Assembly: GCA_015660965.1 (NCBI GenBank) | Contig: JACTVG010000001.1 | Span: 1-64,000, forward strand | Source of the DNA: Methanoregulaceae archaeon | GTDB lineage: Archaea > Halobacteriota > Methanomicrobia > Methanomicrobiales > Methanospirillaceae | Direction: 5' to 3' | Length of the DNA: 64,000 nt | Shown here: in pieces, positions 31,760-38,564 of the stretch | Position numbering within the stretch: the stretch's first letter is position 1 | Layout: the number at the start of each line of letters is the position of its first letter | Program-made: the position numbers and the translations under genes | The notes under the pieces: generated by a model | Told to the model about the DNA's origin: nothing | Databases searched by the model: none | Seen by the model: only the letters and a program-made list of their open reading frames with translations

Positions 31760-32842
31760 TTACCGATCAGGAATTACGTGGACAGCAGTGGCTTTTATTG
31801 TTGCCATTACTTGTTTACCTGGTGATAGATGTAAGTCATCGGATGATTGTCGAGTTATTAGTGCAGTAATAGAGACACCGCAATCAACCTTGACGCGAGT
31901 AAATGGTCCGTATGGTAAAAGATGAGTGATTGTTCCTGGAAGGCAATTTCTTGCACTACTTGTAGTTGGACAAGTATCAGGAAGTGACAGTGTCACTTCC
32001 TCGGGACGAATACAAAGAGTCACCTGCTGTCCGGGTGAAATATTTGTCACTGCCTGAATCCTGACGTCACGAACCGCTATTGTCGCAAGGTTGTTATCAT
32101 TTGATTCTACGACACTTTCACGGATAGGATCAATACCGACGAATACAGCGATTGCTCGGTTTACCGGGTGGTAAAATATCTCAATTAGATTCCCTACCTG
32201 AACCAACTGCCCGCTCATCATTACACCCATTCGGTTAGCGAGTCGTTGTCCCTGTGACATATCATGGGTTGCAATGATAACTGTTGTTTTTTTATCTCGA
32301 TTGATTTTTACGATCAGATCCTCAATAATTTCAGTTGAAAGGGGGTCAAGGTTTGCTGTGGGCTCATCAAGAAGAAGCACCTCAGGATTTAATACAAGTG
32401 CACGAGCGATTGCGACACGCTGCATTTCGCCCCCAGAAAGTGTTACGGCCTTCCTCCGGGAAAAGTTGGAGAGACCGACCATTTCCAATGCTGATGCAAC
32501 TCTCATTTGGATTTGGTCTCTTGGCACTCTGCGGAACTCAAGTCCAAACGAAACATTCTGCTCTACACTTGTATTTAGCACCGCTGGTTTCTGGAAGACC
32601 ATCGCCATACTTCTGCGAATCGAACGACGTTCATTTTCATGACCGTCCGTTAGCATACCGTCAAAAGTAATGGAACCTTTTGTCGGGCGATCGAGTAGGT
32701 TGATTAAGCGTAGCAATGTAGTCTTACCGCTACCAGAAGGGCCAATGAGGGTAAAGATCTCACCATTCCGAATCTCAAGATCAATCCCATGTATTACCTC
32801 ACGCCTGCCAAATTGGTGTGAAAGACCCGTTATTCGGATCAT
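31760..32842 (-). CDS. tupC: Tungstate/molybdate ABC transporter, ATPase subunit
   Basis: 360 aa. Walker A GPSGSGKTT, Q-loop MVFQKPAVL, signature LSGGEMQRVAIARAL and Walker B VLLLDEPTANLDP are intact. The extra C-terminal part (about 235-360) contains two OB/TOBE-type segments (TLCIRPEEV and RVKVDCGVSITALIT). These occur in oxyanion importers and can bind molybdate or tungstate for feedback control. The ATG at 32842 overlaps the permease stop by 4 bp. The symbol is by analogy with tup/wtp systems. Confidence 0.85.
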   Translation of the reverse strand: MIRITGLSHQFGRREVIHGIDLEIRNGEIFTLIGPSGSGKTTLLRLINLLDRPTKGSITFDGMLTDGHENERRSIRRSMAMVFQKPAVLNTSVEQNVSFGLEFRRVPRDQIQMRVASALEMVGLSNFSRRKAVTLSGGEMQRVAIARALVLNPEVLLLDEPTANLDPLSTEIIEDLIVKINRDKKTTVIIATHDMSQGQRLANRMGVMMSGQLVQVGNLIEIFYHPVNRAIAVFVGIDPIRESVVESNDNNLATIAVRDVRIQAVTNISPGQQVTLCIRPEEVTLSLPDTCPTTSSARNCLPGTITHLLPYGPFTRVKVDCGVSITALITRQSSDDLHLSPGKQVMATIKATAVHVIPDR

Positions 32843-33576
32843 GCTTGCGGACCCCCTCTCACTCTATCAGACTCTGTAAGTGCACCTGAAGTTATAAAAT
32901 TCATAATAAGTACAACCACAAGCGCTATCAGAAGTAAGATAATTCCGAGTGCGATGGAAAGCCCAAAGTTCCCCATACCGGTCTCTAATGCAATGGACGT
33001 GGTAAGAACACGGGTCTCGCCTCTAATGTTGCCACCGATCATCATTGCCACCCCAACCTCAGAAATAGCTCGACCAAATCCGAGAATTATCCCTCCAAGA
33101 ATCGCAAAACGGGCTTCCAGTATGATTTGTGTAATGTTCTGGAATTCTGTTGCACCGAGTGAAACCAAAGTCTCGCGGATATTTCGATCAACACCAGATA
33201 AAGCGCTTATTGTGAGTCCGGTCATGATTGGCAGAATGAGAACAGTCTGCCCAATTATCATACCTACAGGAGAAAAAAGAAGCTCAAGGACCCCAAAAGG
33301 TCCAGACCGTGAGATGAGTAAGTATACAACAAGTCCGATTATAACTGTTGGAACGGAATACAGTGTCTGGATGATTGTTATTAGAACTCGTTTTCCTCGA
33401 AATTCCCGGAAGTGAATAAGGCCACCAAACGGTATTGCAATAAGTGTGCTGATTATTGTGGCAGACAGTGATATGAACAAAGAAAGTTCAGTAACTTGAA
33501 GAAGTTCTGGATCAAGTGAGACGATTAATTGGAACGCTTGAATAATGCCGTCAATAATCTCCAGCAATTCGACCAC
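32839..33576 (-). CDS. tupB: Tungstate/molybdate ABC transporter, permease
   Basis: 245 aa with about six membrane helices. The cytoplasmic coupling (EAA) loop is EFQNITQIILEARFAILGGIILGFGRAISEVG. The sequence and length match TupB-type permeases, including the opening ELSLFISLSATIISTLIAIPFGG segment. It forms a dimer in the membrane with the ATPase encoded immediately downstream. Only one permease gene is present although the binding protein has two ligand-binding halves. Confidence 0.85.
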   Translation of the reverse strand: MVELLEIIDGIIQAFQLIVSLDPELLQVTELSLFISLSATIISTLIAIPFGGLIHFREFRGKRVLITIIQTLYSVPTVIIGLVVYLLISRSGPFGVLELLFSPVGMIIGQTVLILPIMTGLTISALSGVDRNIRETLVSLGATEFQNITQIILEARFAILGGIILGFGRAISEVGVAMMIGGNIRGETRVLTTSIALETGMGNFGLSIALGIILLLIALVVVLIMNFITSGALTESDRVRGGPQA

Positions 33577-33703: not shown

Positions 33704-35665
33704 CTAGGTCTTGATAGTAACCATTGGTTTGAGGGTAATCGGTACGTTGTCGTATCCCTCAGCCGGCGTGATCGGGGTCTGACCATCCGCATTGAGTATT
33801 GTCTGTCCGTCACTGCTAATGAGTAGTTTCACAAATTCATTACCCAGATCTGGATTACGTGCAAACCCAGGAACGGTAACTGCATAAATAATTGGCATTC
33901 CGGTTTCCGTTATCGTATCAAAGCCTGATGGGCGCTTCACCTTTACAGTCTGGTATCGGTCCATCATCGAAGGATCAGAAAGATCAATCTCTGGTGGTAG
34001 TGTAATGTATTTGAAGCCGTTTTGGATGGCGATACTGCTGTATTCGAAAGCATAGTCTACTTTCCCAGATTTGAGCAAGGGGGCGATGTCAGGGCCTGTC
34101 GCAGTAATTATAAGTTTCTTTCCATCGGGTGATGGATTAGTCGCGTCAATTGTCCTCATTGCACCATCCACAGTTTCTGTCATTTTGCTGTAAGGAGCAA
34201 TGACTTTGTTGAAGATGTTGGAGTCACCGTACTTCCGCTCAGCAAGTGCAATGGTCATAAGCGAACGATATCCTGCCGGATCAGATCTCGGATCACTTAT
34301 AGCAACCTTCACGGTTGGGTCTTCAAGAACCGTATACCAATTGTCTGCATTCACACTCGTTGCACCTTTGCTCTGGTCAGTGTAGCAGAGCACCATTACG
34401 TTCTTTGCAAAGTCAATGTAGAAACTCGCATTCTTCGGGTACATGTATTTGGGTATTAGTGAATAATCGGCACTTGCGAGGACATCGGCTTTCTGGTTGG
34501 ACTTTGTGATCTTATCGATAATCGCGCCACTCCCACCAGAGAACAGCTGAACATCCACATTTGGATGAGCCTTTTCAAATGCTTTTTCTAATTTTCCAAA
34601 TGAGCTCTGGAGACTACCTGCATGGTATATCTTCAAGGGACGGGTTGCAGTTGCCGGTGTTGTGAAGTCTGCAGTTACTCCTAATGGGACGCCAGCGGTC
34701 ATTGGTGTGAACAGTCCCTTTCCGTACTTATCAACCCCGTAATTTCCAATATCCTTCAATGTATCAGGTGAGATAAGGAAGTTGACAAATGTATTAGCCA
34801 AAGCAATTTTGTCTGGGTTCGGATTGTTCGGATAAACAGTCATGACACTGTATACGTTCATCAAGCTTGACCCTTTTGTCACAAGCGGCACAAGGTCCAA
34901 TTTACTCTTATAGGCAAGGAATGTACCTTCATCAGTCAATGTGTAAGCGTCTTTTTCGCTTGCCATTTGAAGAGTCTCTCCCATACCCTTTCCGGCTTCG
35001 ATATACCATTTGCCAGATTTTTCAACATCGGTAGCGTATTTGTATCCTGCATTGCTCCAAATCTTCTGTTCTGCAGTGTGCGTGCCTGAGCCATCGCCTC
35101 TAGATACAAACATCACTTTGGCGTTTCCTGCTTTTCCCATTGTTAAAATGGTCTTAAAAGCATCCTCTGGAGACATGTCTTTGATTCCAGCTGGATCATC
35201 GGCCGGACCAACAATCTCAAAGTAGTTATAGGCAAATGAGCGGCGGTTCAACCCATATCCATCTTCAAGGAATGCCATTTCACTAGATGGCGAATGGACG
35301 AGCAGGACATCAGCATCACCCGCCTCTGCTAACTGAATTGCCTTACCAGTTCCCTGTGATGTGATGAGAAGATCAATATTATACTTTGCCTCGAATTTTG
35401 GCTTAAGATAATCGAGCAATCCCGTATCATACAAGCTTGTTGTAGTCGCAAGCAAGAGCTTTTGTCTGGGGCCTGTCGCTGCAGGTACACCAGCTTGCTG
35501 TGGCGGTGCCGCGGTTGTTTCAACGTTGACAACAGCACTCTGTGGGGTCGTGACAACGTTAGTAGGTGTTTGACCGGGTTGTGTAGTCGTACAACCTGCA
35601 ATGATCACCCCTCCGATAAGGAGAAGCAAAAGCAATATTACAGAATATCTAAAGGAGTCCCTCAT
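33704..35665 (-). CDS. Fused tungstate-binding lipoprotein (TupA-like plus WtpA-like)
   Basis: About 653 aa from ATG 35665 (MRDSFRYSVILL); a TTG at 35689 is possible but less likely. A lipobox IIAGC follows the signal segment. The first half (about 60-330) is TupA-like: LLLATTTSLYDTGLLDYLKP, GTGKAIQLAEAGDADVLLVH and FVSRGDGSGTHTAEQKIW. A linker leads to the second half (about 340-650), which is WtpA/ModA-like: LKIYHAGSLQSSFGKLEKAF, FSGGSGAIIDKI, ADVLASADYSLIP and SDPRSDPAGYRS. Each half is a complete periplasmic-binding fold. Single-domain proteins are the norm, so this fusion is unusual. It feeds the adjacent permease/ATPase. Confidence 0.85.
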   Translation of the reverse strand: MRDSFRYSVILLLLLLIGGVIIAGCTTTQPGQTPTNVVTTPQSAVVNVETTAAPPQQAGVPAATGPRQKLLLATTTSLYDTGLLDYLKPKFEAKYNIDLLITSQGTGKAIQLAEAGDADVLLVHSPSSEMAFLEDGYGLNRRSFAYNYFEIVGPADDPAGIKDMSPEDAFKTILTMGKAGNAKVMFVSRGDGSGTHTAEQKIWSNAGYKYATDVEKSGKWYIEAGKGMGETLQMASEKDAYTLTDEGTFLAYKSKLDLVPLVTKGSSLMNVYSVMTVYPNNPNPDKIALANTFVNFLISPDTLKDIGNYGVDKYGKGLFTPMTAGVPLGVTADFTTPATATRPLKIYHAGSLQSSFGKLEKAFEKAHPNVDVQLFSGGSGAIIDKITKSNQKADVLASADYSLIPKYMYPKNASFYIDFAKNVMVLCYTDQSKGATSVNADNWYTVLEDPTVKVAISDPRSDPAGYRSLMTIALAERKYGDSNIFNKVIAPYSKMTETVDGAMRTIDATNPSPDGKKLIITATGPDIAPLLKSGKVDYAFEYSSIAIQNGFKYITLPPEIDLSDPSMMDRYQTVKVKRPSGFDTITETGMPIIYAVTVPGFARNPDLGNEFVKLLISSDGQTILNADGQTPITPAEGYDNVPITLKPMVTIKT

Positions 35666-35820: not shown

Positions 35821-36189
35821 TCAACGTGTTATGTTTAACTTTTTTTCAATCTCTTTGAAAATAGTTTGTCCAATGATTGCCTCTGTTTCTTGCTGATAAT
35901 GCGATTTCATGATCTCGATCATCTTTAATGATCCCTTTTCTGTGGTCATTATCCCAACACGCTCTGCTCGTGTAACTAATTCTTCCTGTTCCATCATTGC
36001 AAAATACGGGAGAACGTAATAATGGGGAACATTAAGGAATTCAGCAAGTCTTCGTGTTGTCGGAAATTTTATCCTCGCTTTATTTTGGGAAAATGAAACT
36101 GTGATCGATTGTTCCATTAATAAAATGCGAACTGCAGCATCAAAAAGTAAGTCAACAGATAGTATAACCACCAGTATTTCTCCTAACAA
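35821..36189 (-). CDS. Conserved archaeal protein with winged-helix-like fold
   Basis: 122 aa. Helical N-terminus (MLGEILVVILSVDLLFDAAV), then a DNA-binding-like core: KARIKFPTTRRLAEFLNVPHYYVLPYFAMMEQEELVTRAERVGI, resembling helix-turn-helix plus wing. A C-terminal helix follows. It sits 11 bp after the small gene upstream on the minus strand and about 155 bp before the tungstate operon, so it may regulate it. No DNA-binding function is shown by sequence alone. Confidence 0.55.
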   Translation of the reverse strand: MLGEILVVILSVDLLFDAAVRILLMEQSITVSFSQNKARIKFPTTRRLAEFLNVPHYYVLPYFAMMEQEELVTRAERVGIMTTEKGSLKMIEIMKSHYQQETEAIIGQTIFKEIEKKLNITR

Positions 36190-36200
36190 TATTCAATTCA

Positions 36201-36404
36201 TTAATGTTTCTTTTTCTTATCATCAGGCACCGGGTTTAAAAAAACGACCTGCGCATTAATGTCCTTTGCGATTTGTTCAATCTCAAATTTTCGAAAGTGG
36301 GGTGCTTCAATTTGTAGTTGACCTCCCGTTACAGCAACTATCCGATATTTCGGTTGTTCAACACCTTCTCCGACTTTATTTCGTTCTCGTACATAGATCT
36401 TCAT
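36201..36404 (-). CDS. Small conserved hypothetical protein
   Basis: 67 aa, MKIYVRERNKVGEGVEQPKY. A beta-alpha pattern (YRIVAVTGGQLQIEAPHFRKF, EIEQIAKDINAQVVFLN) is followed by a basic tail (DDKKKKH). It is probably co-transcribed with the winged-helix gene 11 bp downstream. Function unknown. Confidence 0.65.
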   Translation of the reverse strand: MKIYVRERNKVGEGVEQPKYRIVAVTGGQLQIEAPHFRKFEIEQIAKDINAQVVFLNPVPDDKKKKH

Positions 36405-36540: not shown

Positions 36541-37350
36541 ATGAAACACCGGTTTGAGTTGACGAGTGGATTACAAGGGGAGACGCTTGTAAGAAAAGGG
36601 ATGCAAAAAGAGAAGAAAACTGAACAGAATATTCGTATCGCACCGGAATTGAATGTCATCAAGATTGGTGGTCATGGTGCAATCGATTACGGACGGGAGG
36701 TCATGTATCCCCTTTGCGAGGAACTTGGGGCGTTATCCAAAAAACACCAAATCCTCATTGTCACGGGTGGGGGTGGGAGAGTGCGCCACATTATGGACTT
36801 AGGGATCGACCTCGGTATGCCTACAGGTGTACTTGCCGAGCTCTCCGCAAAGATCAGTGAGCAAAATGCGATCATGGTCTCCATATTGCTCTCAAAATAC
36901 AATGGAACGCGAATTCATATAGGGGATCTTCTTGACTTACCAATGCTATTAAACCTTGGAATGCTTCCTGTAGTCCATGGAACACCCCCGTATGGCTTGT
37001 ATGAGCACCCATCACGATCAGAAACAATCCCACCTCATCGTACTGACACTGGGGCATTCTTGATCGCTGAAGTTTTGGGGGCACGAAGCTGTATCATTGG
37101 AAAGAATGTCGATGGGCTCTATACAGAAGACCCAAAAATAAACCCCGATGCCAAACTCATAAAAGAGATCACCGCAAAAGAATTGAGATCATTGGATCTT
37201 GAGGATATGGTGATCGAGCGGATGGTTGTCGAGCTGCTGGAAGATGCGGTCAATATCCGTGAGGTTCAGATCATTAATTGTCACAAGCGAGGCATGATCG
37301 AAAAAGCGATGAATGGAAAGAATGTCGGAACAATTATACGGGCAGAGTGA
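36541..37350 (+). CDS. Molybdenum/tungsten storage protein-like (amino acid kinase fold)
   Basis: 269 aa. The core resembles MosA/MosB of the bacterial molybdenum storage protein, a UMP-kinase-fold cage that stores polyoxometalates using ATP. Matching stretches are ELNVIKIGGHGAIDYGREV, ILIVTGGGGRVRHIMDLGID, LGMPTGVLAELSAKISEQNA, IPPHRTDTGAFLIAEVLGA and IINCHKRGMIEKAMNGKNVG. The N-terminus has LTSGLQGETLVRKGMQKE, as in MoSto-type subunits. UMP kinases lack the RTDTGAF segment and this N-terminal extension. It is divergent from the tungstate importer genes, which supports metal storage. Only one subunit gene is present here, so a homo-oligomer is expected. Confidence 0.8.
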   Translation: MKHRFELTSGLQGETLVRKGMQKEKKTEQNIRIAPELNVIKIGGHGAIDYGREVMYPLCEELGALSKKHQILIVTGGGGRVRHIMDLGIDLGMPTGVLAELSAKISEQNAIMVSILLSKYNGTRIHIGDLLDLPMLLNLGMLPVVHGTPPYGLYEHPSRSETIPPHRTDTGAFLIAEVLGARSCIIGKNVDGLYTEDPKINPDAKLIKEITAKELRSLDLEDMVIERMVVELLEDAVNIREVQIINCHKRGMIEKAMNGKNVGTIIRAE

Positions 37351-37373: not shown

Positions 37374-38564
37374 TTAAAAAAAGAAATAGGAAATAATCAC
37401 ACCAGCAATAACGACCCAGAGGATCTCTCCTCCGAGAAGAAGAGCAACCAGTGCCCCGGCACCGACAAGGGCAAGCTGCCAGGTCCATGATATTCCCATC
37501 GCAAACCGGATGGTTACACTCAATAATAACCCGACAAACGACAAAAGAATGCCATTGATAGCTCGCCGGAACCAGAGTAAACTCTGCATCCGGTCAAAAT
37601 AGGGTTCCGTGCCCACAACAATAAAAAATGAAGGTGCAAAGATGGCAAACGTCGCGATCACACCGCCCCAGGCTCCATCCACTAGATAACCAACAAACGT
37701 AGCCGTTATCACGATGGGCCCGGGAGTCACTTGGCCGAGCGCGATACCGGAAAGAAACGTCGCGCTGTCCAACCATGCATGTGCATCTACAACTTCGTGA
37801 TACATCAAAGGGAGCGAAGCAAACCCCCCTCCAAATGCGAACAGGTCGACACGGAACATCACTGCCGCTAGTTCAAAGAGATTTTTCTGGAAGAAAAAAA
37901 GCACCAGAAACATCGCCGCGACGAGGCCGATGAGGATGAAATATCCTCGCTCCAGTCCGCGGGTTGTGCTTTTCAGTACTGGTTCTGGTGAAGAGGCATC
38001 ACCTCGAAGGATTGCCAGCCCCAGCAGAGCTGCACTTAGGATCACGAGGATCGGGTGCACACCTAAAAAGAACAGTACTGCAGCGATACTGGCGATGGAG
38101 ACATGCACCCATTTTTTTAGTGACATGCGTGCAAATGTGACTGCTGCAGTCGCAATAATAGCGATAATGATGACCTGAAGCCCCCGGAATATCGACACAA
38201 CTGGGGGGATTGCGACCGCTTGAATGTAGAATGCTGACAGCACTATCATGAGTAAAAATGCCGGTAACCCGAATCCCACAAAAGCGGCAATCGCTCCAGC
38301 AAGCCCCCGAATTTTCAACCCAACGTATGCCGCCACCTGCATTGCCGTGGCACCTGGTAATGCCTGGCACAGCGCCACCCCGTTATTAAATGTCGTATTA
38401 TCGAGCCACTTCTCCCTCTCCACCGTTATCGAACGGATGTATGCTACCATTGCCGGCCCACCGAACGCAGTCAGCCCCAGCCGGAGGAATCTGGAAAAAA
38501 TTTTCACGAGCGATGGGGGTTTGGGGTTCATGATAGGTGTGGGGGAGGTCATTGAATACTTCAT
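37374..38564 (-). CDS. chrA: ChrA-type chromate (oxyanion) transporter
   Basis: 396 aa with two homologous CHR halves, each about 190 aa and five to six helices. The duplicated motif is visible: FLRLGLTAFGGPAMVAYIRS near the N-terminus and FRVDLFAFGGGFASLPLMYH in the second half, with GQVTPGPIVITATFVGY. It exports chromate or related oxyanions by family knowledge. Next to Mo/W storage and uptake genes, a molybdate/tungstate export role can be proposed (inference). It is convergent with the storage-protein gene. Confidence 0.88.
   Translation of the reverse strand: MKYSMTSPTPIMNPKPPSLVKIFSRFLRLGLTAFGGPAMVAYIRSITVEREKWLDNTTFNNGVALCQALPGATAMQVAAYVGLKIRGLAGAIAAFVGFGLPAFLLMIVLSAFYIQAVAIPPVVSIFRGLQVIIIAIIATAAVTFARMSLKKWVHVSIASIAAVLFFLGVHPILVILSAALLGLAILRGDASSPEPVLKSTTRGLERGYFILIGLVAAMFLVLFFFQKNLFELAAVMFRVDLFAFGGGFASLPLMYHEVVDAHAWLDSATFLSGIALGQVTPGPIVITATFVGYLVDGAWGGVIATFAIFAPSFFIVVGTEPYFDRMQSLLWFRRAINGILLSFVGLLLSVTIRFAMGISWTWQLALVGAGALVALLLGGEILWVVIAGVIISYFFF

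Follow-up and report, generated by a model that had tools for sequence, protein, structure and literature searches.

Can one archaeal lipoprotein hold two complete tungstate-binding domains from different families, and, if so, what would the second contribute to an importer with one permease and one ATPase? The question is raised by a gene in the window (the whole stretch of 64,000 nucleotides that was analyzed), the reading frame of which runs uninterrupted from an ATG at 35665 to a stop at 33706-33704 (653 codons, no internal stop); an alternative TTG start lengthens the product by only eight residues. The parts of the fusion and its neighbors are as follows.

33704..35665, minus strand: TupA-WtpA fusion lipoprotein gene, 653 aa; supported by sequence, PDB, Pfam and NCBIfam matches and kept in relatives
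35591..35665, minus strand: signal peptide and lipobox, residues 1-25 (...VIIAGC); read directly from the sequence
35474..35590, minus strand: flexible tether rich in Thr, Pro and Gln, residues 26-64; from sequence, and a low-confidence coil in the AlphaFold2 model
34700..35473, minus strand: TupA half, residues 65-322, with pocket TTTS, His, Arg, Thr and Asp; from profiles, alignment and the AlphaFold2 model
34640..34699, minus strand: linker between the halves, about 20 residues (323-342); a gap between the profile matches, with low pLDDT
33707..34639, minus strand: WtpA half, residues 343-653; from profile, structure-sequence and alignment comparisons
32839..33576, minus strand: TupB-type permease, GTG start, next gene downstream of the fusion; NF038017 above cut-off
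31760..32842, minus strand: ATPase (TupC) with C-terminal TOBE domains; ABC_tran and TOBE matches, syntenic in relatives
35821..36189, minus strand: small conserved protein, start uncertain, upstream of the fusion; adjoins the operon in many relatives
36201..36404, minus strand: conserved protein of 67 aa that travels with the operon; present beside it in relatives
36541..37350, plus strand: homologue of the MoSto (molybdenum/tungsten storage protein) beta-subunit, a divergent neighbor; PDB match

The original prediction, that two whole binding domains lie behind one lipobox, is upheld by Pfam, NCBIfam and PDB matches within the one open frame, and the three sequence motifs that it cited are all present in the protein. 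Pfam places PBP_like_2 at residues 62-300 (E 4e-45) and SBP_bac_11 at 344-628 (E 1e-42), and comparison by sequence with the PDB matches residues ~65-322 to TupA (3lr1/5my5, E ~1e-54) and 338-651 to WtpA (3k6u/2onk, E ~1e-74); the sequence matches of both halves are far beyond chance. The first half was recognized by the TupA profile and the second by the WtpA profile. The NCBIfam TupA model NF041772 covers residues 68-321 with 181.8 bits, below its curated cut-off of 400; the one lone TupA tested from the same family as the window genome scores just 175.9 bits, so this cut-off excludes that group too. WtpA model TIGR03730 spans residues 344-615 with 294.9 bits, above its curated cut-off of 242.75, and NF003196 gives the WtpA half 325.9 bits, missing its cut-off of 355. 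The objection that one half might lack a folded binding domain finds no support by sequence, as each half spans an entire family with solved structures. Of the two Venus-flytrap domains, structure prediction supports that of the TupA half only. For the TupA half the AlphaFold2 model has pLDDT values of mostly 80-96, and Foldseek with the full model ranked TupA first, the best fold match being 5my5 with a TM(target) of 0.84. WtpA structures aligned with poor TM, owing to the model's poorly predicted WtpA half; predicted alone, from a thin alignment holding the window and related-locus proteins only, this half reached a mean pLDDT of 38.6, which speaks neither for nor against a fold. Cys25 of the lipobox (IIAGC) is presumably the lipidated residue, and relatives possess a Cys in the same setting.

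A six-frame search of 232 genomes of the order revealed a full-length two-domain frame in 29, including seven of the eight genomes of the window's genus and 22 others; the eighth (G007) carries a lone TupA at the fusion locus. Five further copies (G022, G063, G064, G181 and G219) are cut by contig ends or deleted, which brings the carriers to ~34 genomes, spread over eight genera of the window's family plus a single genus from another. The G022 copy (L017/L033:2-1477) displays an in-frame loss of ~160 residues from the middle of the WtpA half. The single-contig assemblies G004 and G010 both carry the fusion at full length. An assembly chimera or a stop codon lost in the window genome only, for which no supporting evidence was found, is refuted by this recurrence of the identical architecture and can practically be dismissed; the fusion is genuine. 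No relative of it was found on viral contigs.

The permease downstream is a separate gene, with no membrane subunit fused to the binding domains, and is overlapped by the ATPase gene by 4 bases. It scores 175.1 bits with the TupB profile (the cut-off of 320 is not reached) versus 46.8 bits with WtpB. In the window genome, the completeness of which is given as 99.88%, no further molybdate- or tungstate-binding protein was found, and a profile search detected no WtpB above cut-off. The only other SBP_bac_11/PBP_like_2 protein lies at C157 with two permease-like stretches adjacent, which suggests a PstSCA-like setting. From this it appears that one TupBC serves the fusion, which would be the only Mo/W receptor of the genome; only one permease and one ATPase adjoin the gene, as would be expected if they serve both halves as proposed. 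Upstream, the product of 35821..36189 is possibly a winged-helix regulator, its sole match being a weak one to a DtxR-type DNA-binding part (E 0.04), and the product of 36201..36404 has no match in Pfam or NCBIfam; both small proteins are candidates for W/Mo regulation. The MoSto homologue matches 2ogx_B with E 6e-57, uridylate kinases reaching only 1e-11. By eye, the ORF at 37374-38564 (minus strand) near the operon resembles a ChrA-type chromate-transporter membrane protein.

The gene order of forward fusions is modE-like/fusion/TupB/TupC. Methanoregula-type relatives with a lone TupA possess regulator, tupA, tupB and tupC, that is, the setting of the fusion minus the WtpA half. Lone TupA and fusion occur together in one cluster in G173 and G190, and in G034 and G164 there is no TupBC within the stretch examined around the fusion. 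That the two families are normally separate holds true in other families of the order, where tupABC is followed by wtpABC as six unfused genes.

The pocket of D. alaskensis TupA consists of TTTS, His59, Arg118, Thr124 and Asp170 (PMC5517513). All of these published residues are present in the window fusion, where the TTTS motif reads LLLATTTSLYDTGL. Among 30 fusions, TTTS, Arg118, Thr124 and Asp170 are found in all and His59 in 29 (D. alaskensis numbering).

The WtpA pocket is less straightforward. In WtpA, the ligands Asp160 and Glu218 (Pyrococcus numbering) hold tungstate in a distorted octahedron, and Pyrococcus WtpA loses its tungstate selectivity when Asp160 is mutated (PMC10221389, PMC4139814). 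This selectivity Asp (Pf Asp160; DP-x-G-Y-R motif) is invariant in 118/118 WtpA rows, and every fusion that reaches these positions retains it together with both serines and the pocket tyrosine. For the placement of the canonical Glu we relied on the A. fulgidus WtpA ligands, which we take to be Asp153 and Glu218 with a spacing of 65, and on the Glu in the AF, MA and MJ structures. The WtpA half of the window retains the HAGS Ser, the GS Ser, the selectivity Asp and the Tyr; residue 530, at the place of the canonical Glu ligand (Pf Glu218), is Gly, and residue 547, 17 positions later and preceding the Tyr, is Glu. Glu547 may stand in for the canonical ligand.

Such an exchange is seen across the family. 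Outside the forward-fusion clade, 85 WtpA rows were compared (~81 distinct sequences, counting the reverse fusions). In 43 of them Glu occupies the canonical position and the residue preceding the pocket Tyr is not Glu; in the other 42 the canonical residue is Ser or Ala, and it is the residue preceding the pocket Tyr that is Glu. No row has both or neither, so that exactly one of the two positions is Glu throughout. The 17-residue spacing between them is ungapped. The rows include L100, L122, L125, L127 and L131-L179. On a tree built without both Glu columns there are 7 changes at each position, and in the exchange test all four of the supported independent pairs agree (p 0.125), which is too few pairs for significance. 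Among forward fusions, the window and 20 others are Gly/Glu, one is Arg/Glu and five are without a carboxylate at either position; in six fusions of genus g6 the first position is Asp or Glu, with a one-residue insertion that makes the alignment less sure. We read this as an indication that the WtpA carboxylate ligand can be supplied from either of two positions. A simple loss of the octahedral site had been considered as the meaning of the lost Glu and was dropped once the exchange appeared. That the WtpA half keeps the Asp that sets tungstate selectivity in Pyrococcus argues for a tungstate site in each half, as opposed to one for tungstate and one for molybdate.

The WtpA halves of all forward fusions fall into a single clade with 100/100 support, the stem of which measures 0.5 changes per site; lone WtpA sequences from this family branch elsewhere. 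We conclude that the WtpA half was joined once in the window lineage. The clade includes two contig-cut fusions, L101 and L102; the AU test rejects a clade of the 31 labelled fusion rows only because these two were counted as lone. The TupA tree mixes fused with lone forms, so the second domain was lost or exchanged several times, and the tree fits either. In nine close pairs the TupA half gave dN/dS values of 0.03-0.10 and the WtpA half values of 0.04-0.17; synonymous sites are saturated between the window and G004. Both halves are maintained under purifying selection.

The same two domains are joined in the opposite order elsewhere. G245, a genome from a different order, encodes a 728-aa protein (L100:5055-7238, minus strand) in which WtpA comes first and TupA second, with a C-terminal tether rich in Pro and Thr and an end resembling PGF-CTERM (24.0 bits, just short of the 24.5 cut-off). 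Its neighbors are TupB, TupC and both small conserved proteins; a MoSto-like gene and moaA-, moaB-, moeA- and mobB-like genes, all recognized by eye, also lie near. A second G245 reverse fusion of 69% identity is found nearby at G245:C3:20047-22104. Another WtpA-TupA fusion of 599-617 aa, the TupA half of which has ATGS rather than TTTS, occurs in G255, G264 and G307 (L160:2536-4332, L161:525-2321 and L162:2011-3861), where in L160 and L161 (G255 and G264) WtpB- and WtpC-like genes follow. The WtpA halves of reverse fusions lie apart from the forward fusions in the tree, and the TupA/WtpA pairing has thus arisen at least twice and probably three times. Given that the opposite order exists elsewhere, the pairing itself seems useful.

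As to how the two halves work together, on balance we lean toward a reading in which two tungstate-capture domains on one tether feed one TupBC importer. The lipidated N-terminus would anchor the exported chain (tether, TupA, short linker, WtpA), each Venus-flytrap half would close on an oxyanion (tungstate, and molybdate more weakly), and the TupA half would be the cognate docking partner of TupB; cargo would enter the cell via the one TupB/TupC importer, the genes of which lie directly downstream. The WtpA half would be a second capture site, which either docks on TupB too or enriches tungstate close to the TupA half, and the reverse fusions, found with either permease, fit both versions. 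We infer that tungstate is the ligand of both halves, that TupBC is used jointly and that local capture is the benefit. The domain matches, the pockets, the operon, purifying selection, the single origin, the recurrence and the MoSto neighbor favor this reading; it is weakened by the absence of the canonical Glu, the five carboxylate-free fusions, the G022 deletion and a second half that, judging from the interleaving of lone and fused TupA, can be dispensed with. Furthermore, with WtpB and TupB only ~25% identical, docking of a WtpA domain on TupB cannot be taken for granted. Perhaps only the TupA half docks there, the WtpA half being a tight-binding antenna or store that hands the anion over to it, an alternative that we consider quite possible, though we doubt it. 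Wherever a permease adjoins an examined fusion, it is the cognate partner of a single half (TupB with the forward fusions and with L100, WtpB with L160/L161), and the affinity of Pyrococcus WtpA for tungstate is about 30,000 times that of TupA from Eubacterium (PMC10221389). However, so tight a site is slow to let go of its ligand unless a permease opens it, and the long stem of the fused WtpA clade could equally mean adaptation to docking on TupB. We also know of no precedent for hand-over between such binding domains, which we count against an antenna.

Two further explanations concern the fate of the WtpA half itself. The idea, offered first with the original prediction, that it became a molybdate receptor, and that the fusion broadens one importer to tungstate and molybdate, draws on the Gly in place of the octahedral-site Glu ligand in the window and on the fusion being the only Mo/W binding protein in a genome the owner of which may need both metals; yet the selectivity Asp (PMC10221389) is invariant and the Glu has moved to a neighboring pocket position in the window, and we regard this as improbable. 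That the half is a decaying remnant of a chance fusion, contributing nothing, would accord with the internal deletion in G022, the loss of both carboxylates in five fusions and the many relatives in which this locus holds a lone TupA. Decay is nevertheless disfavored by the selection test, with dN/dS in the WtpA half at 0.04-0.17, and by the conserved pocket serines, Asp and Tyr, the persistence in eight genera and the independent reverse fusions, all of which render it highly improbable.

Compared with known systems, the first half shares fold, TTTS, published pocket residues and TupB/TupC partners with TupA of Desulfovibrio alaskensis (5my5) and Geobacter (3lr1), but those are single-domain proteins, whereas the fusion adds a WtpA domain after TupA. 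The second half matches archaeal WtpA/ModA (A. fulgidus AF_0094, 2onk; M. acetivorans MA_0280, 3k6u) over the whole domain and shares the pocket serines, Asp and Tyr; it differs in having Gly for the Glu ligand and Glu before the Tyr, in being without its own signal, and in its partner, TupB instead of WtpB. GlnPQ shows that a single translocator can be supplied by a pair of dissimilar binding domains on the same polypeptide (PMC8025302, PMC11331510). GlnPQ of Lactococcus lactis resembles the fusion in having two binding domains in series, one chain and one translocator, but its domains are of one family and fused to the membrane subunit, whereas here a free lipoprotein joins two families. The six-gene tupABC-wtpABC cluster of other Methanomicrobiales (L069-L073) has both binding proteins side by side, unfused, with two permeases and two ATPases, where the fusion operon has one of each. 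Tandem binding domains are known, and no report of a TupA-WtpA fusion was found in the open-licence literature searched; in a survey of Mo/W transporters across some 5,900 genomes, the section on fusions concerns molybdoproteins (PMC6147048).

The choice of oxyanion by an importer is thought to rest with its binding protein. A naturally occurring chimera of two tungstate receptors placed before one TupBC, and existing in both orders and with either permease, offers a direct test of whether a permease can be served by a binding domain foreign to it and of what a second domain adds at trace metal levels, and the Glu exchange in WtpA provides a testable view of how a tungstate site is constructed. 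The first step by which methanogens form methane requires tungsten or molybdenum, which makes the uptake of trace amounts physiologically relevant to them. A speculative and rather doubtful extension is a two-stage receptor, in which the non-cognate half would catch scarce tungstate and pass it to the cognate half docked on the permease, a solution that would have evolved independently for each domain order and with each kind of permease. If true, this would represent a new working principle for ABC importers.
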